Source of the DNA: Microcella alkaliphila
GTDB lineage: Bacteria; Actinomycetota; Actinomycetes; Actinomycetales; Microbacteriaceae
Reading direction: 5' to 3'
DNA length: 64,000 nt
NCBI RefSeq assembly: GCF_004216855.1
Contig: NZ_SGXT01000011.1
Span: 372,001 to 436,000 of the forward strand
Notes under the pieces: model-generated
Seen by the model: the letters and a program-made list of their open reading frames with translations, nothing else
Told to the model about the DNA's origin: nothing
Databases searched by the model: none
Shown here: piece by piece, positions 3,193 to 13,381 of the stretch
Position numbering within the stretch: position 1 is the stretch's first letter
How the letters are laid out: each line of letters opens with the position of its first letter
Position numbers and translations under genes: made by a program

Positions 3193-5274
3193 TCAGACGT
3201 CGATGCGGTCGCGGTCGAGCCCCTGGCCCGCGATGATGAAGTCTTTGCGCGGGGCGACGTCGTTACCCATGAGCAGCTCGAACACGCGGTTCGCCCCCTC
3301 GGCGTCGGAGACGCGCACCCGGCGTAGCGTGCGGTGGGCGCGGCTCATGGTCGTGTCGGCCAACTGGTCGGCATCCATCTCTCCGAGGCCCTTGTAGCGC
3401 TGAATGGGGTCCTGGTAGCGCTTGCCCGACTTCTTCAGCGCGGCGAGGACACCCTGCAGCTCTTTCTCGCTGTAGGTGTAGATCGTCTCGTTCGGCTTCG
3501 ATCCCGGGTTCATGACGACGACGCGATGCAGCGGCGGCACGGCGGCGAATACGCGACCGTCGTCGATCATGGGGCGCATGTAGCGGAAGAACAGCGTCAG
3601 CAGGAGCGTGCGAATGTGGGCTCCGTCGACGTCGGCGTCGGACATGATGATGACCTTGCCGTAGCGAGCCGCGTCGAGATCAAACGAGCGACCGGAGCCC
3701 GCTCCGATCACCTGGATGATGGATGCGCACTCGGCGTTCGAGAGCATGTCGCTCACCGAGGCCTTCTGCACGTTCAGGATCTTGCCGCGAATCGGCAAGA
3801 GAGCCTGGTACTCGCTGTCGCGGGCGAGCTTGGCGGTGCCGAGCGCACTGTCGCCCTCCACGATAAACAGCTCGCTCTCGGCGACATCGCTTGAGCGGCA
3901 GTCGACCAGCTTCGCGGGTAGGGAGGAGTTCTCGAGTGCGTTCTTGCGACGCTGGGTCTCCTTGTGGGCACGCGCCGAGATGCGGCTCTTCATCTCGGCG
4001 ACGACCTTGTCGAGCACGAGCGCTGACTGCGCCTTATCGTCGCGCTTCGTGCTCGCAAAACGCGCCTTCAGGGCATCCGACAGCACCTTCGCGACGATCG
4101 CCCGTGCGGCCGGCGTGCCGAGAACTTCCTTCGTCTGGCCCTCGAACTGCGGCTCGGGGATGCGGACCGTCAGCACCGCGGTGAGGCCGGCCAGCACGTC
4201 GTCCTTCTCGAGCTTGTCGGTGCCAGCCTTCAGGCGCCGCGCGTTCTTCTCGACCTCCGCCCGCAGGGTCTTCAGCAGCCCCTGTTCGAAGCCGGCCAGG
4301 TGACTGCCGCCCTTCGGCGTCGCGATGATGTTGACGAAGCTGCGCACAGCGGTCTCATAGCCGGTCCCCCAGCGCAGGGCGATGTCGACCGTGCACTCGC
4401 GTTCGAGCTCGGTCGGCGTCATGTGGCCCTGCGCGTCGAGCACCGGCACCGTCTCGGTGAAGTGGCCGTTGCCGGTGATGCGCCAGGTGTCGGTCAACGG
4501 CGAATCCGGCGCAAGGTAGTCGACGTACTCGCTGATGCCCCCCGAAAAGTGGAACGTTTCCGTCCTCGTTTGCTCGCCGCGCTCATCCGTGACGGAGAGG
4601 GAGAGCCCCGGCACGAGGAACGCCGTCTGCCGTGCTCGAGCCATCAGCTCGTCTGGCTGGAATTCCGTGCCCTTCGTGAAGATCTGCGGGTCGGCCCAGT
4701 ACCGGATGCGCGTTCCGGTGACCCCCTTGGCCACCTTTCCGACCACCCGTAGCTCACTGCCCGAGATGAACGGGGAGAACGGCGCGTCAGGGCGTGGGCC
4801 GTCGGCGTCGTCGTCGAAGATGCCGGGCTCGCCGCGGTGAAACGACATGGCCCACGTCTTGCCCCCGCGATCGACCTCAACGTCGAGCCGCTCCGAGAGG
4901 GCGTTGACGACCGACGCGCCGACCCCGTGCAGACCGCCCGAGGCGGCGTAGGAGCCGCTGCCGAACTTGCCGCCAGCGTGCAGCTTCGTGAACACAACCT
5001 CAACGCCCGACAAGCCGGTCTTCGGCTCGATGTCGACGGGGATACCGCGGGCGCTGTCGCGCACCTCGACACTGCCGTCAGCGTGCAGACGAACCTCGAT
5101 GCTGTCGCCATGACCGGCGAGGGCTTCGTCGACCGAGTTGTCGATGATCTCCCACAGGCAGTGCATGAGGCCGCGGGAATCAGTGGAGCCGATGTACATG
5201 CCGGGGCGCTTGCGAACAGCCTCGAGTCCCTCAAGGACGGACAGGTGCCGGGCGGAGTAATCAGAGTGAGCCAC
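3193..5274 (-). CDS. parE: DNA topoisomerase IV subunit B (ATPase subunit, ParE)
   Basis: This is the ATPase subunit that drives strand passage with ParC. It has a GHKL ATPase fold: EIIDNSVDEA for Mg/ATP contacts and GGLHGVGASVVNAL for the ATP lid. A transducer domain follows, then a TOPRIM domain with EGDSALGTAK and the metal triad DADVDGAH. The C-terminus contains RYKGLGEMDADQL. The chosen start is GTG at 5274, directly after GGAGG, giving VAHSDYSARHL and 693 residues, a normal ParE length. A longer frame continues upstream but that extension has no conserved sequence. The gene is convergent with parC, with 6 bases between the stops. Confidence 0.9.
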   Translation of the reverse strand: MAHSDYSARHLSVLEGLEAVRKRPGMYIGSTDSRGLMHCLWEIIDNSVDEALAGHGDSIEVRLHADGSVEVRDSARGIPVDIEPKTGLSGVEVVFTKLHAGGKFGSGSYAASGGLHGVGASVVNALSERLDVEVDRGGKTWAMSFHRGEPGIFDDDADGPRPDAPFSPFISGSELRVVGKVAKGVTGTRIRYWADPQIFTKGTEFQPDELMARARQTAFLVPGLSLSVTDERGEQTRTETFHFSGGISEYVDYLAPDSPLTDTWRITGNGHFTETVPVLDAQGHMTPTELERECTVDIALRWGTGYETAVRSFVNIIATPKGGSHLAGFEQGLLKTLRAEVEKNARRLKAGTDKLEKDDVLAGLTAVLTVRIPEPQFEGQTKEVLGTPAARAIVAKVLSDALKARFASTKRDDKAQSALVLDKVVAEMKSRISARAHKETQRRKNALENSSLPAKLVDCRSSDVAESELFIVEGDSALGTAKLARDSEYQALLPIRGKILNVQKASVSDMLSNAECASIIQVIGAGSGRSFDLDAARYGKVIIMSDADVDGAHIRTLLLTLFFRYMRPMIDDGRVFAAVPPLHRVVVMNPGSKPNETIYTYSEKELQGVLAALKKSGKRYQDPIQRYKGLGEMDADQLADTTMSRAHRTLRRVRVSDAEGANRVFELLMGNDVAPRKDFIIAGQGLDRDRIDV

Positions 5275-5468
5275 GATCCTCCAGCGTAGACGCGGGGAGG
5301 CGACGGGCTTGCGCACCACTCCGGGAGCTCGCACGACCCCCAGCCGGCAGGGGCGGTCGTCGTTATGCGCTGAGCGAAACGGCGGCCAACTGGCAGGGTT
5401 CGGTCGGTGCGGTGTGGTGCAATAGGCCATCCGGAACCCGATCACGACGCGACGAAGGAAGGCCCACC

Positions 5469-5738: not shown

Positions 5739-6776
5739 CTATGGTGACAGCGCAGTTGTGCGAGGCACCCACGGAGCAATACGAGTTACGACCTCCTCAC
5801 CAATTGTGCCGACGGCTTCTGCGAGTGCCGTCGGCTCCACCGCCGGTCCGAAGATTTCGACGGTGTCTCCGACGCGCGCGCCCGGCCATGAGCCCACGCG
5901 GCTGACTTCCGCACCGACCTCTCGAAGGGGACGCAGGCCGGCAGATGTGGCGACGTCGACGGCCCCAGCGAGCGAGGAAAACAGACCATCGCGGGACCCA
6001 ACGGCGACGGTGACAGCCGCGTCGTCAACCGCCACAACGGGTGCAAGTAGTCGCGCAATGGGGCGGATCCCCAGCGTGGCGCTGTCTGGCCCGCCGGCGG
6101 GGCGAATGCCGTAGGCGAATGCTCCGATGCGCACAGCGTCGTAACGGAATTCGGGCCGCGCCCACGACGCAGCGCTCGCCGCTAAATGCCGAATGCCGGG
6201 CGTGAGGCCCGCCGTCGTGAGCGCGTGAACCGCCTCGTCGTACCGAGAACGGGCGTCATCATCGTCATCATCGCTTGCCTCAGCAATGTGACTCCACACT
6301 CCCGCAAGCTCGATAGCACCAGACGTCACCGCGGCCGACACAGTCGACGCCAGCGAATTCCACTGGTCAGGGCGAAACCCCCCACGGCTGAGGCCTGTGT
6401 CGACCTCAAGGTGCACTCGCGTTCGCCGTGTGGCGTGGCGATCTATGAGCAGCGCCAACAGCTCAAAATCTCCGACCCCGATCTCAATCTCGGCGGCGAT
6501 CGCATCAGCGAGGAGGGATCGCTCCCCCGTCGGCCACGCGAGCACGCGCGTGTCGGCGGGGACAACGGCGCGGGTGGCGAGACCCGTCGCGAGGTCTGAC
6601 GTGGCGAATGAGCGAATGCCCGCATCGGCGGCAGCCGTCGCGATCGTGCTCAATCCGTGACCGTATGCATCGTTCTTGACCACGAGCATGAGGTCAGCTG
6701 GTCCTACCCGGGCGCGGAGAACGTCAATATTACGTCGAAAGGCTGCCAGGTCGATTTCCAGACGGGGGCCAATCAC
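5739..6776 (-). CDS. Alanine-racemase-like protein with PLP barrel but degenerate C-terminal domain
   Basis: The 345-residue product has a complete alanine-racemase N-terminal barrel. LEIDLAAFRRNI leads to the PLP-lysine motif VVKNDAYGHG (K34), then EVDTGLSRGGF and VRIGAFAYGIRP (phosphate and Arg contacts). The C-terminal beta domain is recognisable (GDTVEIFGPA, GTIGEEVVTRIAPWVPR), but the segment that should carry the catalytic tyrosine (VSYG) is deleted. GYADG has become GSRDG and the GRVSMD motif is lost. The start is GTG at 6776, overlapping the upstream gene's stop as GTGA, so translation is coupled. An alanine racemase needs the tyrosine of the partner subunit, so this protein alone should be inactive. 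The upstream gene supplies the missing part. The amino acid acted on is not certain. Confidence 0.85.
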   Translation of the reverse strand: MIGPRLEIDLAAFRRNIDVLRARVGPADLMLVVKNDAYGHGLSTIATAAADAGIRSFATSDLATGLATRAVVPADTRVLAWPTGERSLLADAIAAEIEIGVGDFELLALLIDRHATRRTRVHLEVDTGLSRGGFRPDQWNSLASTVSAAVTSGAIELAGVWSHIAEASDDDDDDARSRYDEAVHALTTAGLTPGIRHLAASAASWARPEFRYDAVRIGAFAYGIRPAGGPDSATLGIRPIARLLAPVVAVDDAAVTVAVGSRDGLFSSLAGAVDVATSAGLRPLREVGAEVSRVGSWPGARVGDTVEIFGPAVEPTALAEAVGTIGEEVVTRIAPWVPRTTALSP

Positions 6777-7462
6777 GGCACGACCACAGCTGTCCCGCGC
6801 GCGCAGAGCGGAATGACCACCTCGTCGGGGGCGAGCCCGGTCACGGACACCCACTCAGCCACCGGCGGTTCGTTTGCTTCAGGATCACCCAACAATACGA
6901 CCTCCGTGCCTGATCGCACGACCCGGGAACCGACATCGATGACGCACACGTCCATCGCCACCCGGCCAACGATCGGCGCACGCTCACCCTCGACGAGAAC
7001 CGAAGCACGGTTGCCGAGCGCGCGCACAACGCCCTGCGCGTACCCCCCAGCCACCAGCGCCACAGTGGTGTCCGTTTTAGCCCGCCACGTCAAGCCATAA
7101 GAAACGCCGTCTCCGGCCCGCAATCGCTTAGTGGTCGCGACGCGTGACAACACACGGATGACAGGGGGCTTCAGCGTCTCGCGCCTCGCGACGAGAGGGT
7201 TGTCGCACAGTGAAGCCTCAACAACGACAAGTCCCGCCGCACGTGCCCGGTCGCCTTCCGCCGCGTCAACGCACACAGCACAAGGGTTCTCAGCCAGTAG
7301 TGGCAAGACTCGCTCGAGTCCGATACCCCAGGCGTCATGACGAAGATCGAGCACATGGTCGCCGGACATGGCGGCAAGCCACTTATGCAATCGTGACCGA
7401 GACACCTCAACGGTCAGCCTCCGTGGTACGAGAGGCCAGGAAACGCGGCGCGCGGTAGTCAC
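6773..7462 (-). CDS. Alanine-racemase-like protein with catalytic-Tyr domain and collapsed barrel
   Basis: A 229-residue protein in which the racemase C-terminal domain is intact. GDGVSYGLTW carries the catalytic tyrosine (Y122), followed by GGYAQG (139-144) and IVGRVAMD with M170. In front of it only about 100 residues of barrel remain. LRHDAWGIG (40-48) aligns with the PLP motif KADAYGHG but has Arg41 where the PLP lysine should be, so it cannot form the internal aldimine. It is coupled on both sides by GTGA overlaps, to the ATP-grasp gene upstream and the barrel-bearing racemase gene downstream. Racemase active sites lie between the barrel of one subunit and the C-domain of the other, so the two proteins probably form a heterodimer with one complete site. 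A decaying duplicate is the alternative, but the reading frame is clean. Confidence 0.8.
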   Translation of the reverse strand: MTTARRVSWPLVPRRLTVEVSRSRLHKWLAAMSGDHVLDLRHDAWGIGLERVLPLLAENPCAVCVDAAEGDRARAAGLVVVEASLCDNPLVARRETLKPPVIRVLSRVATTKRLRAGDGVSYGLTWRAKTDTTVALVAGGYAQGVVRALGNRASVLVEGERAPIVGRVAMDVCVIDVGSRVVRSGTEVVLLGDPEANEPPVAEWVSVTGLAPDEVVIPLCARGTAVVVP

Positions 7463-8487
7463 CGGTTGCGGGCCGCCTCGAAGAGGGGTTCGTGCCGAGG
7501 CCGGGAGCCCCGACGTAACCCGGTGGCGCTCACCCGCGTTTCGTAAAGTCCGGGTATCCAGTTTCCCTCTATCAGTAAAGGCCCCTCTGGGGTTATCGCC
7601 ACATCCCAGCCGACATAGGGAACCTCAGGTATGCGTCGCGCCGCGTCTTTCACAAGAGCAACAGCCTCGTTCCATAGGGGAACCCGGTAGTCAATAATCG
7701 ATTCGCCGGAGTCCGGGTGTGTGTCGTATCGGCTCTTGTGCTTTCCCGTATAGCCAGGGCCCACTGACGCACCGTCGTCGTCAAGCATCGTGTAAAAACC
7801 ACCCCACGTGAACTGGTCGCTCACGGCGCCGCGGCCAAACTTTTGCACGGCGACGAGGAGGTGGACCTCCGCACCGTCAAACCACGTCGTCATTCGAATT
7901 GTGTTGACCGTGCCCGAGCAGTAGGCCGCGATCGCCGGGTGTTGCGTAATTGGTTCTTCCACCAACAGCTGACCCGCCGCGACCCGCTCGTCGAAGAAAA
8001 CGCTCCAATCGCGTACCTCGCGCGTATCGAACCGAAACACACCCTTGCCTTCGCGACTCACCGGCACTTTCGCGATGATCACGGGGTGCCTCTCGGCGAA
8101 CTCGCGCAAGCCGGAAACCCCCGCCGCTCTGATGTCGATCCACTCGCGGTGCAGGAGATCTGAAAACGCCACGTTGAATGAGAGCTTGTTCTCTAAGGTT
8201 TTCGCGGCTTCTCGATCATTGAGCGCTGTCGCAAGGTGGTGCTGCAAAAGAGAGGTCATGAATGTCGCGCGCTCAGCACGATTCAAGAGAGCAAAATCCG
8301 CCTCGTAGTAATCGATGTACGCCGTGTCACGGAACGCGGCCGAAAAGAGCATGTCGACGAAAACCCGCACGCGCGAGACCGACTGCTCCTCAGCGATCTG
8401 CGTCGCAATACCCCAGACTCGTGAGAATCGGAATGCCCGGAAACGACGGACGATATAGCGAATACGAGCAGAAAGGGCAACTCCCAT
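7459..8487 (-). CDS. Sugar-transfer-associated ATP-grasp ligase 1
   Basis: A 342-residue protein of the ATP-grasp family often annotated as sugar-transfer associated (ATPgrasp_ST). An N-terminal helical region is followed by AKVPVSREGKGVFRF (nucleotide-binding loop), EEPITQHP, TVNTIRMTTW, GGFYTMLDDDG and the Mg-ligand region VGWDVAITPEGPLLIEGNW with Asp, Glu and Asn in place. ATP-grasp enzymes activate a carboxylate as acyl phosphate and join it to an amine or thiol; the substrates here are unknown. The start ATG at 8487 matches the start of the paralog at 8621, but an in-frame GTG at 8532 is possible. Translation is coupled to the racemase genes by GTGA. The GC content is lower than in the flanking housekeeping genes, suggesting transfer. 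Confidence 0.8.
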   Translation of the reverse strand: MGVALSARIRYIVRRFRAFRFSRVWGIATQIAEEQSVSRVRVFVDMLFSAAFRDTAYIDYYEADFALLNRAERATFMTSLLQHHLATALNDREAAKTLENKLSFNVAFSDLLHREWIDIRAAGVSGLREFAERHPVIIAKVPVSREGKGVFRFDTREVRDWSVFFDERVAAGQLLVEEPITQHPAIAAYCSGTVNTIRMTTWFDGAEVHLLVAVQKFGRGAVSDQFTWGGFYTMLDDDGASVGPGYTGKHKSRYDTHPDSGESIIDYRVPLWNEAVALVKDAARRIPEVPYVGWDVAITPEGPLLIEGNWIPGLYETRVSATGLRRGSRPRHEPLFEAARNR

Positions 8488-8563
8488 GGTGTGCGCGTAG
8501 CCCTTTCTGTCTTCGATCCGTGCTTCGTCCACACAGCGAGCTACCCGCCACGGACGCGGCACA

Positions 8564-8569
8564 ATTATA
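8564..8569 (-). promoter_or_regulatory. -10 box (TATAAT) for the ATP-grasp/racemase operon
   Basis: A perfect TATAAT hexamer on the minus strand, reading towards the ATP-grasp 1 gene. Transcription would begin near 8557. I saw no good -35 hexamer at the standard distance. The gene on the opposite strand starts at 8621, so about 130 bases hold both divergent promoters. Confidence 0.5.
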
Positions 8570-8608
8570 GTGGCGGCGCGCGCGAGCGAGAGGGTTCGCA
8601 ACCCGTGT

Positions 8609-8614
8609 TAGCGT
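8609..8614 (+). promoter_or_regulatory. -10 box (TAGCGT) for leaderless ATP-grasp 2
   Basis: TAGCGT ends 6 bases before the GTG at 8621 and no Shine-Dalgarno sequence precedes the codon. This spacing fits transcription starting at or next to the start codon. Confidence 0.45.
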
Positions 8615-8620
8615 AACGGC

Positions 8621-9682
8621 GTGCGTCAAGTCGGCCTGCGCTTGCGGTACCTCGCTGAGCGAGCTCTCCGCCTCAACACAGCGAACCTCATCGAGTGTGC
8701 GCGGCAGGCGAAGCGGGTGTCGAAGGCCCCCCTGGTCATCATCATCCTCGACATGCTGTGGTGCTCCGTGCGGTACGAAATGGCATTCCGCGACTATGCG
8801 GTCTGGGACATCCGAACGCTGTCGGGAACTGAGCGGCGCACATGGATGACCCACCCCAAAGCGTTTCGCCTCAATAGCACGCTCAATGCTCCGAACTCCC
8901 GTGAGCTGCTGGGCGACAAGCCGCGGTTTTACCGCGACTTCGCGACAGAAATCGGTCGCGAGTGGATCGATGCACAACACGCGAGCGAGGAAGAGGTTAG
9001 CCGGTTCCTTTCCCGGCACGCACGGGTTATGGCAAAACCCCCGCACGGCGAGGGCGGCGCCGGCATTGACATCCTCGACACGACGGACGTCCTCGCAGAT
9101 GTGGGAACCACCCTTCAGTCGCTGCGCGAGAAACATCAGACGCTGCTCGAGGAAGTCGTTGTTCAGCACCCCGATCTCGCAGCCCTCGCCTCCCACAGCG
9201 TCAACACCATCCGGCTCATTACCTACCGTGACCCGCGAGACCAGTTCCATCTCATCGCCGCGGTCCTCCGCATCGGCAATCAGGGAATCATCGACAATTT
9301 CGCAGCCGGCGGCATGTTCACGATGCTGGATGACGACGGTGTCGCCCTCTGGCCAGCTGTCGACAAGCAATCGAACATCTACGCGAAGCACCCCGTGTCA
9401 GGCGTCGCCATCCAGGGTTTTCGCGTGCCCCACTTCCGGGAGGCGGTTGAGCTGGTCACACATGCTTCCCGTCGGCTACCCACGGTGCCGTATGTGGGGT
9501 GGGATATCGCGATCACCGCAGAGCGGCCCATCCTGATCGAGGCCAACCATAACTCAAGTGTTTTTCAGATGAAGCCTCGAGCCTCCGGTATTAGAACCGG
9601 GCTCCTCCACCGGTATCGCGCGGCCGTCGGCCCAGGAATACTCGACCGCCGTTCCCGTCGACGCGTCACCACACAGGTCTGA
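8621..9682 (+). CDS. Sugar-transfer-associated ATP-grasp ligase 2
   Basis: A 353-residue paralog of the divergently encoded ATP-grasp protein. Both share the order of motifs: AKPPHGEGGAGIDIL (nucleotide loop), EEVVVQHPDLAAL, SVNTIRLITY, GGMFTMLDDDG and VGWDIAITAERPILIEANHN with the Asp/Glu/Asn metal ligands. Clear but moderate divergence from the paralog suggests two ligation steps or two subunits rather than a recent duplicate. The GTG start at 8621 has no ribosome-binding sequence and follows a TAGCGT box by 6 bases. It ends 12 bases from the convergent murJ-like gene. Its substrates are unknown. The neighbours (racemase pair, CofE-like ligase, MurJ) suggest a peptide or amide bond on a lipid-linked molecule. 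Confidence 0.8.
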   Translation: MRQVGLRLRYLAERALRLNTANLIECARQAKRVSKAPLVIIILDMLWCSVRYEMAFRDYAVWDIRTLSGTERRTWMTHPKAFRLNSTLNAPNSRELLGDKPRFYRDFATEIGREWIDAQHASEEEVSRFLSRHARVMAKPPHGEGGAGIDILDTTDVLADVGTTLQSLREKHQTLLEEVVVQHPDLAALASHSVNTIRLITYRDPRDQFHLIAAVLRIGNQGIIDNFAAGGMFTMLDDDGVALWPAVDKQSNIYAKHPVSGVAIQGFRVPHFREAVELVTHASRRLPTVPYVGWDIAITAERPILIEANHNSSVFQMKPRASGIRTGLLHRYRAAVGPGILDRRSRRRVTTQV

Positions 9683-9694
9683 TTCGCCGACGCG

Positions 9695-11287
9695 TCAGTG
9701 ACCCAAGCGCTGTCTCACTGCGGCGAAGGCGAGCGAAAGTTCTCGGGTGCGAAGCGCCGCAAGTACGGCGAGATAGACGATCAGCGAGGCAGTGCCAATC
9801 AGTACCGTGCCGAGGGCTCCTGTGAGCTTGTCTGTGAGCATCCACCCCTCGGCACCCCCACTCAGCATGTAGACACCGAAGCCGGCGCTGGCGGCGAGTG
9901 CCGCCGCACAGACGAACCGACCGAGTGCAACGAGTGTGCGGCCGAGACCAAACGGGCCAATCATGCGTCGCAACAGCACGGCAGCGACCGTGACCTGAAA
10001 CAACCCGGCCACGGTTTGTCCCGCGGCGACCGACGCCGTCAGCGACTCGTTCGCAACTACGGCTGCGGCGCTCAGCGTGAAGACGACTACGAGCACACCT
10101 TGCACAAGGGTGAACCAGAAGGGCGTGCGCGTGTCGCCATAGGCGTAGAAGGTGCGTTGCACGATGAAGAGCACCGCCATCGGCGTGAGCCCGACGAGAA
10201 ACGCGATCAGCACGGGCGCCGAGGCAAGAGCATCGGTTGTCGAGTTCGAGAAGACACGGGTGGCGGGCGCCGCCGCCGCCACCAGGCCCGCGACAGCAAC
10301 GAGGACGAAGATAGTAAGCATTCGTATCGACTGATCGATGTCGCTGACAAGTTGCCGGTTGCGCCCCGCCGCAGCATGCTCACTGATGCGGGTGAAGTAG
10401 GGAGTGCCGATAGACAGCACGATCAGCGAGTAAGGCAACATGTAGATCAGCCAGGCGTTCTGCCAGACGAAGATCGATGCGTCAGTACCCGATGCGGCTG
10501 AGATCGTCTGTTGTTGCACGATCCCCGCGGCGACGCCGATCAACATGGTCGAAAATGTCCAGCTCGCACGACGGCTGAGGCCACGCAAGCCAATTCCCCG
10601 CCAGCGAAAGTCGGGTCTCAGCGGAATTCCGGTGCGGCGCCAGAATACGGCGAGGATAAGGGTCTGAGCGATGATGCCAATTGTCGCCGTGGCACCAATC
10701 AGCGCGATACTCCCGAGATCCCACTCTTCGAGCTGTCGACGATCGGCCCCGAAGATCGCAATCAATACCCCGAAACCCGCAATCGACACGACGTTGTTGG
10801 CAATGGGAGCCCATGCGTACGGGGCAAACACCCCCCGGGCGTTGAGAGTCTCCCCGACGAGGGCGAACATTCCGAGGAAGAACACCTGCGGAATACACCA
10901 GTACGCGAATGCGACAGCGAGCGCGCGTTGTTCGTCCGAGAAGTTGGCGGCGAACAGCCACACCAGGAACGGGGCGGCGAGCATGGCAAGCGCAGTTGCA
11001 ATGGCAAGACCGGTAGCACCCAGCGTCATCAACTTCGGCAGCACCGCCCGGCCACCGTCAGATCGTGCACTGAGCGCCACGACGTGGGGCACGATCACCC
11101 CTGTCAGTAGACCGGTCGAGATAATCGCGATCAGCGTGTTCGGCAATTGGTTTGCGGTTGCAAAGGCGTCACTTGCGGGGCCGATAACTCCGATTGCTGT
11201 GACGAGTACTATCGTACGAATCAGGCCGGTTACACGCGACACGAGGGTGCCGGCGGCGATCAGTGCGCTGGAGCGCGCCAGGCTCAT
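9695..11287 (-). CDS. MurJ-family lipid flippase (MATE/MVF superfamily)
   Basis: A 530-residue polytopic membrane protein with about 14 hydrophobic segments, a normal MurJ length. The N-terminus SSALIAAGTLVSRVTGLIR and the following FATANQLPNTL are the hallmark first-helix and loop sequences of the MurJ/MviN family, which flips lipid II and related undecaprenyl-linked precursors. It overlaps the CofE-like gene upstream by ATGA, so the two are translationally coupled. Actinobacteria normally encode their housekeeping MurJ elsewhere, so this copy may be a dedicated flippase for the product of the surrounding ligases; that is an inference. If no second copy exists in the genome it could be the lipid II flippase itself. 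Confidence 0.88.
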   Translation of the reverse strand: MSLARSSALIAAGTLVSRVTGLIRTIVLVTAIGVIGPASDAFATANQLPNTLIAIISTGLLTGVIVPHVVALSARSDGGRAVLPKLMTLGATGLAIATALAMLAAPFLVWLFAANFSDEQRALAVAFAYWCIPQVFFLGMFALVGETLNARGVFAPYAWAPIANNVVSIAGFGVLIAIFGADRRQLEEWDLGSIALIGATATIGIIAQTLILAVFWRRTGIPLRPDFRWRGIGLRGLSRRASWTFSTMLIGVAAGIVQQQTISAASGTDASIFVWQNAWLIYMLPYSLIVLSIGTPYFTRISEHAAAGRNRQLVSDIDQSIRMLTIFVLVAVAGLVAAAAPATRVFSNSTTDALASAPVLIAFLVGLTPMAVLFIVQRTFYAYGDTRTPFWFTLVQGVLVVVFTLSAAAVVANESLTASVAAGQTVAGLFQVTVAAVLLRRMIGPFGLGRTLVALGRFVCAAALAASAGFGVYMLSGGAEGWMLTDKLTGALGTVLIGTASLIVYLAVLAALRTRELSLAFAAVRQRLGH

Positions 11288-11982
11288 ACGGATCGGACGA
11301 TCCCGAGGGGCGTGCTTTGGTGCCCCTGACCGAGCGGGTTGTCACGCAGAATCCGGACCAACCGGCGTTCTCCGTCAGGATCAAGGGTTGACCCCAAGAT
11401 GTTGCCGCCGAAGTCGTTGATGTCGACGACCGCGACGTCGACCGGAAGGCTGAGCGCTGACTGCAGCGTCTTCGCCACCTCGGCCGGCTTCTCGGGCACC
11501 AGTACGACCTGGGTGTTGTAGGGCGGGATGGTTCCGGAGGTCGGCCCATCGATGCCGCGCGCCTTGGGGCCGGCGATGCGGTAGAAGTCGCCCGTGCGGC
11601 CGACCGCTTTGGTGACGGCGGCGACGGCGGCGGCGAACAGGATGCGCGGGGTTCCGCACTCGCGCAGCGCCATTTCCATCGTCTCGGGCATTCCGAGTCC
11701 GATGCCGTGCGAGGTCTTCGTGACGTACTTTGACAGGAAGGTGGCGAGCTTGCGGGGCTGAATGTCGGAGACCGGGTACGAGCGCCCCTGGCTGATCGCG
11801 ACGATCTTCTCCGTGACGAACAGCAGGTCGCCGGCGCGCAGGTGCTCGGTGGCGTAGCGCGTGACGACCTCGACGATGTCGTCGTCGGTTGTCACCACGT
11901 GGGTCTTCACCGGGATGCGCTGAATGGTTTCACCGTCGACCTCGATGGTCAACGCCTTGCCCTCGTTGGGAGACGCGGTCAT
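11284..11982 (-). CDS. CofE-like F420-0:gamma-glutamyl ligase family protein
   Basis: A 232-residue protein matching the CofE family, which in F420 synthesis joins L-glutamate to a phospholactyl moiety using GTP. Recognisable parts are IPVKTHVVTTDDDI, RAGDLLFVTEKIVAISQGR, DFYRIAGPKARGIDGPTSG, and a C-terminal VDINDFGGNILGS with metal-binding Asp and Asn. No cofC, cofD or other F420 genes are nearby. Instead it is coupled by ATGA to a MurJ-type flippase and sits beside ATP-grasp ligases, so it may add glutamate or a similar residue to another acceptor. The start ATG at 11982 follows AGGA closely. Only about 44 bases separate it from sigA upstream. The family call is good; the substrate is open. 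Confidence 0.8.
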   Translation of the reverse strand: MTASPNEGKALTIEVDGETIQRIPVKTHVVTTDDDIVEVVTRYATEHLRAGDLLFVTEKIVAISQGRSYPVSDIQPRKLATFLSKYVTKTSHGIGLGMPETMEMALRECGTPRILFAAAVAAVTKAVGRTGDFYRIAGPKARGIDGPTSGTIPPYNTQVVLVPEKPAEVAKTLQSALSLPVDVAVVDINDFGGNILGSTLDPDGERRLVRILRDNPLGQGHQSTPLGIVRSV

Positions 11983-12025: not shown

Positions 12026-13381
12026 TTACTCGAGGTAGTCGCGCAACGCCTGCGAGCGCGACGGGTGGCGCAGCTTCGCCATCGTCTTCGACTCGATCTG
12101 GCGGATGCGCTCGCGGGTGACGCCGAACGTGTCGCCGATCTGGTCGAGCGTCTTCGGCATGCCGTCGCCGAGGCCGAAGCGCATGCGAATGACGCCGGCC
12201 TCGCGCTCCGAAAGCGAGTCGAGCAGGCTCTCGAGCTGCTTCTGCAGCATGGTGAAGCCGACCGCATCGGCCGGCACGACCGCTTCGGTGTCCTCGATGA
12301 GGTCACCGAACTCGCTGTCGCCGTCTTCGCCGAGCGGAGTGTGCAGCGAGATCGGCTCACGGCCGTACTTCTGCACCTCGATGACCTTCTCGGGGGTCAT
12401 GTCGAGTTCGCGGCTCAGTTCTTCCGGCGTGGGCTCGCGACCCAGGTCTTGCAGCATCTGGCGCTGCACGCGGGCGAGCTTGTTGATGACCTCCACCATG
12501 TGTACCGGGATGCGGATGGTGCGCGCCTGGTCGGCCATCGCGCGCGTGATTGCCTGACGAATCCACCAGGTGGCGTAGGTCGAGAACTTGAAGCCCTTCG
12601 TGTAGTCGAACTTCTCGACGGCACGAATAAGGCCCAGGTTTCCTTCTTGGATGAGGTCGAGGAACTGCATGCCTCGGCCCGTGTAGCGCTTCGCGAGCGA
12701 CACGACGAGACGCAGGTTGGCGCCGAGCAGGTGCTTCTTGGCCCGCTGGCCGTCGCGGGCCACCCAGTCGAGCTCACGACCGAGCTGGGTGCGCTTTTCC
12801 TTGTCGCTCATCTGCGACAGCTTCTCTTCGGCGAACAGGCCCGCTTCAATGCGCATCGCCAGCTCGACCTCTTCGGCCGCGTTCAAGAGCGCGACCTTAC
12901 CGATCTGCTTCAGGTAGTCCTTGACCGGGTCAGCGGTCGCGCCGGTGATCGTCGTTGAGTAGACGGGGACCTCGTCGTCGTCGGTGTTGCTGAGAACGAT
13001 CGCGCCCGTCGGAAGCTCTTCCTTCGGTACGTCCGTGTCGTCGTCCGCGTCATCGTCGGCGGGAGCGCTCGCGAGTGCCGCGGCAGCGTCCTCGTCGACG
13101 GCAGATTCATCCTTCGCCGCGGCGGCCGTCGTCTTCTTGCTGCGCGACGCGGTGGCCTTCGTCGCGGTCGCGGTCTTCTCCGCCGCCGCGGCGTCGGCCT
13201 TCGCTGTCGGCTTCTTCGCGGCTGTCGGCTTCTTCGCGGCCGTGGTCGCGGCCGTCGCCTTCTTCGCGACGGTGGTGGTCGTGGTTGTCGCCTTCTTCGC
13301 GGCAGGCTTCTTCGCGGCAGGCTTCGCCGCGGCCTTCTTCTCAGCCGGAGCGTCGCTCGTGCTCGTCGTACGTGTCGCCAT
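12026..13381 (-). CDS. sigA: Primary RNA polymerase sigma factor (SigA/RpoD)
   Basis: A 451-residue housekeeping sigma factor. Residues 1 to about 110 are a low-complexity tail rich in Lys, Ala and Thr, with AAKK/TAKK repeats resembling histone H1 tails, then an acidic patch. Region 1.2 begins at [13 protein letters not shown]. Region 2 contains [19 protein letters not shown] and [12 protein letters not shown] for -10 recognition. Region 4.2 contains [20 protein letters not shown], the helix-turn-helix that reads the -35 element. It is the start of a minus-strand run leading to the CofE-like and MurJ genes. Upstream is a 14-base tandem repeat. The primary rather than alternative role follows from the full region 2/4 match and the basic N-terminal tail typical of actinobacterial SigA. 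Confidence 0.93.

Follow-up and report, generated by a model that had tools for sequence, protein, structure and literature searches.

Two overlapping genes of Microcella alkaliphila, found within a 64,000-nucleotide stretch of contig NZ_SGXT01000011.1 (the window), very likely encode complementary racemase subunits that act only together; the complex and its activity are inferred. The downstream gene, Dn, encodes a PLP-barrel half and the upstream gene, Up, a C-domain half. Gene order, residue patterns, natural fusions, and co-inheritance are shown by the comparisons below, and the split is real and old. A physical heterodimer, for which there is no co-fold, structure or assay, is very probable by inference, because the losses are reciprocal, the genes are co-inherited, and natural fusions exist.

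One racemase fold divided between two overlapping genes

Dn matches the full length of Pfam profile Ala_racemase_N (E-value 7e-46, profile positions 1-220 of 220) and scores only 25.7 bits against Ala_racemase_C, aligned to profile positions 34-126, the later part of the C-domain. Up matches Ala_racemase_C in full (2.8e-33, positions 1-122 of 127) and has no Pfam match to Ala_racemase_N at E <= 1. Both fall below the curated cutoff of 168 bits for model TIGR00492, with 128 bits for Dn and 94 for Up; one Dn relative, at locus L048, passes it with 195 bits. The PLP motif VVKNDAYGHG is present in Dn, which has neither the Tyr loop nor GRVxMD. Up keeps GDGVSYGLTW and IVGRVAMD, attached to a barrel stub with Arg at the position of the PLP lysine. 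PLP lysine and catalytic tyrosine are divided between the two polypeptides, the former occurring only in Dn and the latter only in Up. The segment carrying the catalytic tyrosine measures 20 residues in the window Dn, versus 39 in both canonical alanine racemase (Alr) and the window Up; over 52 Dn homologs its median is 22 (range 20-39). For single-chain models of both proteins (mean pLDDT 91.0 for Up and 95.1 for Dn), the top structure matches in PDB are alanine racemases, as are the best sequence matches. The two-domain Alr fold is met, with Dn contributing both domains minus the Tyr loop and Up the C-domain plus a stub. A single canonical alr of full length lies on another contig of this genome. 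As a separate observation, the Lys of an HLKxDTG motif, present in at least 90% of Dn sequences and corresponding in position to the carbamylated Lys of Alr, is replaced by Glu in the window Dn.

A first-pass annotation, made from sequence alone, had described the genes as complementary halves of one alanine racemase, Dn with the PLP lysine and full barrel and without the Tyr segment or GRVxMD, and Up with VSYG, GRVAMD, a barrel stub, and Arg for Lys. Each of these claims held, according to Pfam, the motifs, and the 52 Dn and 51 Up homologs. The GTGA coupling it proposed at both ends was confirmed as two overlaps (Table 1), and the ATP-grasp ligase gene that overlaps the start of Up is inferred to be the first gene of a putative operon with Up and Dn.

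Table 1. Positions of features in the window and in loci used for comparison
Feature	Locus	Position	Strand	Remarks
ParE/GyrB-type topoisomerase subunit (termed parE)	window	3193-5445	minus	one island flank
Dn, PLP-barrel half	window	5739-6776	minus	345 aa; likely start is the GTG at 6776, not the longer ORF start at 6854
Dn Glu327 codon	window	5796-5798	minus	replaces the gate Tyr of canonical Alr (Tyr352 in S. pneumoniae)
Dn Lys34 codon	window	6675-6677	minus	PLP lysine
GTGA overlap	window	6773-6776	minus	Up stop / Dn start
Up, C-domain half	window	6773-7462	minus	229 aa; GTG start
Up Tyr122 codon	window	7097-7099	minus	catalytic tyrosine
GTGA overlap	window	7459-7462	minus	ATP-grasp stop / Up start
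ATP-grasp ligase (ATPgrasp_ST, PF14397)	window	7459-8601	minus	exact start uncertain
Cell-wall-like island	window	7459-11982		
Second ATP-grasp (ATPgrasp_ST)	window	8621-9682	plus	divergent
MurJ family protein (PF03023)	window	9695-11287	minus	
F420-0:gamma-glutamyl-ligase (CofE)-like (PF01996)	window	11284-11982	minus	start estimated at internal ATG
Sigma-70 factor (termed sigA)	window	12026-13381	minus	other island flank
Natural Up-Dn fusion	L206	7465-9687	plus	766-aa reading frame
Natural Up-Dn fusion	L250	4946-6541	minus	531-aa protein
Pair of genome G040	L046	6277-8149		
Two split pairs	L207	1764-11960		
Intact T2 and TsaE-like sequence	L166	8443-10284		Clavibacter
MurT-GatD with ATP-grasp	L268	3270-10462		no pair; another genus

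Reciprocal loss of active-site residues

In described Alr structures, two identical subunits pair and every chain carries the complete set of residues. Each active site combines Lys40, Tyr44, Arg136, His165, Ser203, Arg218, and Tyr352 of one subunit with Tyr263', Tyr282', Arg288', and Arg307' of its partner (PMC3146814); we take Met310' to be also among the residues that Alr subunits lend to each other. Residues were counted in 52 Dn and 51 Up homologs, in S. pneumoniae numbering and with Met310' placed by motif; L040 (broken, with N) and L050 (at a contig end) were left out. Lys40, Arg136, His165, and Arg218 are each present in 52 of 52 Dn. Up never has Lys40, replaced by Arg in 36 of 51, and never Tyr352. 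Partner-side residues are retained in Up: Tyr263' and Met310' in all 51, Arg288' in 50, Arg307' in 49, and Tyr282' in 44, the other seven having Phe. The corresponding counts among 52 Dn are 0, 1, 8, 6, and 17, and the position of Tyr263' falls in a gap in 51 and is Gly in one. The residues of the live site survive and those of the other site decay, a reciprocal pattern which, repeated over 52 Dn and 51 Up, is not chance. Structure alignments covered 50 of 51 Dn (L074 out) and 42 of 51 Up (nine out, mostly with long barrels).

We propose that Up and Dn together make up a single PLP racemase of fold type III, each as one subunit. Dn would supply the barrel, the PLP, the Lys base and, from its own C-domain, the gate residue, while Up would supply the second base, Tyr122, together with the equivalents of Tyr282', Arg288', Arg307', and Met310'. 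Such a heterodimer would hold one working site, and Dn or Up alone none. An obligate heterodimer with one working site, as the first-pass annotation put it, is thereby supported by sequence evidence, with complex, stoichiometry, and activity inferred. Its further claim of two dead sites fails: a heterodimer of this kind would have one live site and one that is dead or absent.

Loss of motifs from both halves could instead suggest decaying duplicates, that is, pseudogenes. That explanation is all but excluded: across many genera, and also in a genome of 0.93 Mb, the reading frames are open and the complementary residues invariant.

Pairing, gene order, and natural fusions

Genomes were searched for co-occurring pairs with the same reciprocal losses, and such pairs were found. 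The search, which worked mostly through Dn, returned 122 split loci, of which 102 were distinct once duplicates were removed, since named and unnamed loci overlap (rows L051, L052, L121, L122, and L120, the last being identical to L046, were omitted from the locus set). Up stands beside Dn in 99 of the 102, two are natural Up-Dn fusions, and in one Dn is cut by the contig end. Outside the named set, split loci are spread over 28 genus codes of Microbacteriaceae. No solitary Up was found among C-domain matches searched irrespective of Dn (22 plus 15 genomes, G304 included). A seemingly solitary Up in G304 was rejected: pieces of Dn adjoin it in several frames, and parE and canonical alr are also broken, so that the case represents a frameshifted assembly. 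Neither of two findings that would have refuted complementary halves was made, namely a Tyr segment present in Dn, judged by sequence, and halves that routinely occur alone.

The pairing has further supporting evidence. In both fusions the C-domain module precedes the Dn barrel. A four-nucleotide overlap of Up and Dn occurs in 42 of 51 pairs, in one case through CTG. The same 26 loci form a clade, clade A, in both the tree of Dn barrels and the tree of Up C-domains. Pairs of clade A share the orientation of flanking sigA and parE in 26 of 26 cases, and 25 of the 26 remaining pairs have the opposite orientation; it is therefore probable that each form arrived, or was inverted, on its own, with the two genes staying paired.

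The fusions also bear on a rival explanation, in which Dn acts alone as another PLP enzyme, an aldolase-like or transaminase-like barrel without the Tyr, and Up is a regulator. In its favor, a Dn homodimer would be without the second base, and alanine racemase mutated at the Tyr acquires other activities. We nevertheless consider it unlikely, since Up keeps the exact partner-side residues (Tyr263' and Met310' without exception), which a regulator would not need, and since two natural fusions exist.

Two loci are unusual in arrangement. L207 has two split pairs between sigA and parE, the lost Lys being replaced by Arg in one Up and by Gly in the other. In Lacisediminihabitans changchengi, the pair locus appears on two scaffolds (L194 and L195) with the same match and spacing.

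Genomes with and without the pair

In the genus of Microbacterium yannicii, 94 of 119 genomes have at least two matches at E <= 1e-80, 23 have one, and two have none. Nineteen loci of that genus comprise 16 from two-match genomes (15 split pairs and one fusion) and three, all split pairs, from one-match genomes; two further one-match genomes, G244 and G268, also carry the pair. In G227 and G262 the second match is a full-length but divergent racemase. Among 22 genomes examined, 17 of the 18 with the pair also have a full-length Alr. This co-occurrence is the basis for a second rival, in which Up completes the site of the canonical full-length Alr rather than that of Dn. It is very unlikely: canonical Alr has its own Tyr, Up is found beside or fused to Dn, and one pair genome, G040, is without canonical Alr.

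G040, a single contig of 927,303 bp, is the smallest genome seen. It has one Ala_racemase_C match, which is Up, one barrel match over the cutoff, which is Dn, and a gene of D-Ala-D-Ala-ligase (Ddl) type. Among its two class-IV proteins, one of them scanned by NCBIfam, no D-amino-acid transaminase was recognized. A 287-residue candidate for that role was rejected as an aminodeoxychorismate lyase (NCBIfam 452 bits, cutoff 273); the other class-IV transaminase we take to be IlvE-like. Because the pair comprises the only Alr-type genes there and occurs with a Ddl-type ligase, it may, possibly, make D-Ala in this organism. Either the enzyme accepts alanine too or the lineage has partly reverted, both being no more than possibilities. 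In three other assemblies, G218, G258, and G244, whose completeness is not given, the pair alone was seen.

Origin of the split

Sixteen loci hold intact full-length racemases in tandem, designated T1 and T2, with named examples in Clavibacter, Herbiconiux, Subtercola, and Planctomonas. In the barrel tree, T2 groups with Dn and T1 with canonical Alr (support 92). T2 resembles Dn also in its acidic gate residue, described below; unlike Dn, it keeps its own Tyr loop, so it can be a homodimer. The barrel remnant of Up has 172-239 residues in eight of 51 sequences, 77-128 in 37, and 30-69 in six, never with the Lys. Extant forms therefore make a graded series, from intact tandems through long-barrel Up without Lys to shorter barrel stubs. 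A second, full-length racemase, still found in relatives, is probably the ancestor of the split pair, and the likely path would run from a tandem duplication, through a change of gate residue in one of the copies, to reciprocal loss. With intact, intermediate, split, and re-fused forms all extant and the subunits partly dead, this natural split is a clear example of duplicated genes degenerating reciprocally.

It is possible that a homodimer with an acidic gate was split repeatedly. The Up/Dn pairs form two clades, which lie in opposite orientations at the same locus, and clade A of the barrel tree also includes six T2; in that tree, the Dn of L046 sits on a long branch without a firm place. 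Separate origins remain tentative because all Up join in 40% of bootstraps of the C-domain tree, in which columns are few and branches long. The stretches fetched around intact T2 gave no match to sigA or parE. In Clavibacter locus L166, intact T2 shares one reading frame with a TsaE-like sequence, and TsaB-, RimI-, and TsaD-like frames, assigned by eye, come next.

An acidic residue at the substrate gate

Tyr352 of Alr (Tyr354 in Geobacillus) narrows the entry to the active site and bears on specificity, and in lysine and broad-specificity racemases this position is Thr or Ala (PMC3485190). The substrate side chain points at the gate residue (PMC4517790). Dn is acidic there in 52 of 52 sequences (Asp 33, Glu 19), as is intact T2 in 16 of 16. 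Among 46 canonical and T1 sequences, the residue is Tyr in 42, His in two, and Trp in two, and never acidic. Position 168 shows a similar division, Asp or Glu in 67 of 68 Dn and T2 versus none of the 46, the sole exception being the Dn of G040, with Asn. The acidic gate in Dn and its intact relatives goes beyond the first-pass annotation, whose suggestion of a possibly altered substrate gains support from it. Given Asp or Glu at the substrate-gating Tyr (68 of 68 versus 0 of 46), alanine is likely not the main substrate of the pair, an inference from sequence with activity untested.

The contrary view is that the heterodimer is real and serves as a second or replacement alanine racemase that tolerates the acidic gate. 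This is possible. Both the best sequence and the best fold matches are alanine racemases, and G040, with its Ddl-type ligase, and G218, G258, and G244 show the pair alone. Against it stand the full-length Alr present in 17 of those 18 pair genomes and the uniformity of the gate, at which Asp or Glu lowered alanine activity in AlrTt, an enzyme whose own residue is Gln (PMC4517790).

Two acids near the pocket would fit a basic side chain. The invariant Asp or Glu at the gate and the position of the pair beside peptidoglycan-type ligase genes lead us to infer, with evidence nearly balanced on either side, that the substrate of the favored non-alanine enzyme may be a basic amino acid (ornithine, diaminobutyrate, or lysine) that enters the type-B peptidoglycan of this family in its D-form. 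Peptidoglycan of Microbacterium contains L-Lys, D-Orn or DAB (PMC10757982); D-Lys is given for Frigoribacterium, D-Orn for Homoserinimonas, and DAB for Lacisediminihabitans (PMC7033078). Split pairs are present at loci named for these last three genera, in a scan of named genomes that kept the best 80 of 236 relatives. Several facts weigh against this reading: the gate of known lysine racemases carries Thr or Ala rather than an acid, a pair-bearing species, of Lacisediminihabitans, is reported as B1-alpha with DAB (PMC7033078), and in G040, a complete and reduced genome, the pair alone is present and may make D-Ala. If the reading is true, it identifies the enzyme behind the D-diamino acid of group-B walls and points to adjoining candidates for the bridge-forming ligases.

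Comparison with known racemases

The pair resembles Alr (TIGR00492; PF01168 and PF00842; 1xfc, 1vfh, 3s46) in the fold of both domains, the PLP Lys on the barrel, and a composite site between subunits with Tyr from the partner's C-domain. It differs in dividing the residues between two proteins and in having Asp or Glu for the gate Tyr. Lyr (4dza), Bar (4dyj), and BsrV (7agz) have the Alr fold in common with the pair. Lyr and Bar, which accept Lys and Arg (PMC3485190), likewise have the gate Tyr replaced, but they are homodimers, and their gate residue is Thr or Ala rather than Asp or Glu. The catalytic domain of the VanT serine racemase (4ecl) is also Alr-like with a changed gate Tyr (Asn, PMC3485190), but has all residues in one chain and is linked to vancomycin resistance.

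The open-access (CC-licensed PMC) literature searched yielded no account of an alanine racemase that is split or heterodimeric, which is not proof of absence. Nor did it yield a paper on the pair when searched for racemases in connection with the peptidoglycan of Microbacteriaceae, or for alanine racemase in Tropheryma; PMC2447455, from the latter search, has neither term in its main text. The word "heterodimer" is absent from the searched text of a review of such racemases (PMC8142540), and no open-access paper found assigns enzyme steps for the D-diamino acid or the bridge ligases of group-B walls.

The sigA-parE island

Both sigA and parE were seen in 89 of the 102 distinct split loci. Beside the pair, MurT-GatD occurs in 60 and a CofE-like gene in 35 (both in one, neither in eight); 31 of the 35 CofE-like loci also have an ATP-grasp gene. 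MurT and GatD were assigned from Pfam domains and NCBIfam matches below cutoff. CofE-like and MurT-GatD are nearly mutually exclusive at the island in the loci examined. The alpha-carboxyl of D-Glu in lipid II is the group that MurT-GatD amidates and also the one from which group-B bridges extend.

An obligate partnership of the racemase with ATP-grasp was considered and rejected. Relatives of the window ATP-grasp are present in 19 of 48 genomes, five of 23 with a pair or tandem versus 14 of 25 with one alr. Ten of ten pairless genomes of the same genus, chosen by their ATP-grasp match, have sigA, CofE-like, ATP-grasp, and parE at the locus and no racemase; the second ATP-grasp type, too, occurs at the locus in same-genus genomes without the pair. 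In pairless L268, MurT-GatD and ATP-grasp lie together between sigA and parE, and the exclusion therefore concerns only CofE-like and MurT-GatD.

These arrangements suggest that the pair is a racemase module which can be removed from a cell-wall island. A bolder reading, which we judge a little more apt to be wrong than right, is that the pair is a heterodimeric single-site racemase that would make the D-Orn, D-Dab or D-Lys of Microbacteriaceae type-B peptidoglycan, as a swappable sigA-parE module with MurT-GatD or CofE-like/ATP-grasp. In that case the partner ligase sets might possibly act on the same alpha-carboxyl of D-Glu. The window itself carries one such cell-wall-like island, with two ATPgrasp_ST genes, a MurJ family gene, and a CofE-like gene between sigA and the racemase pair (Table 1).
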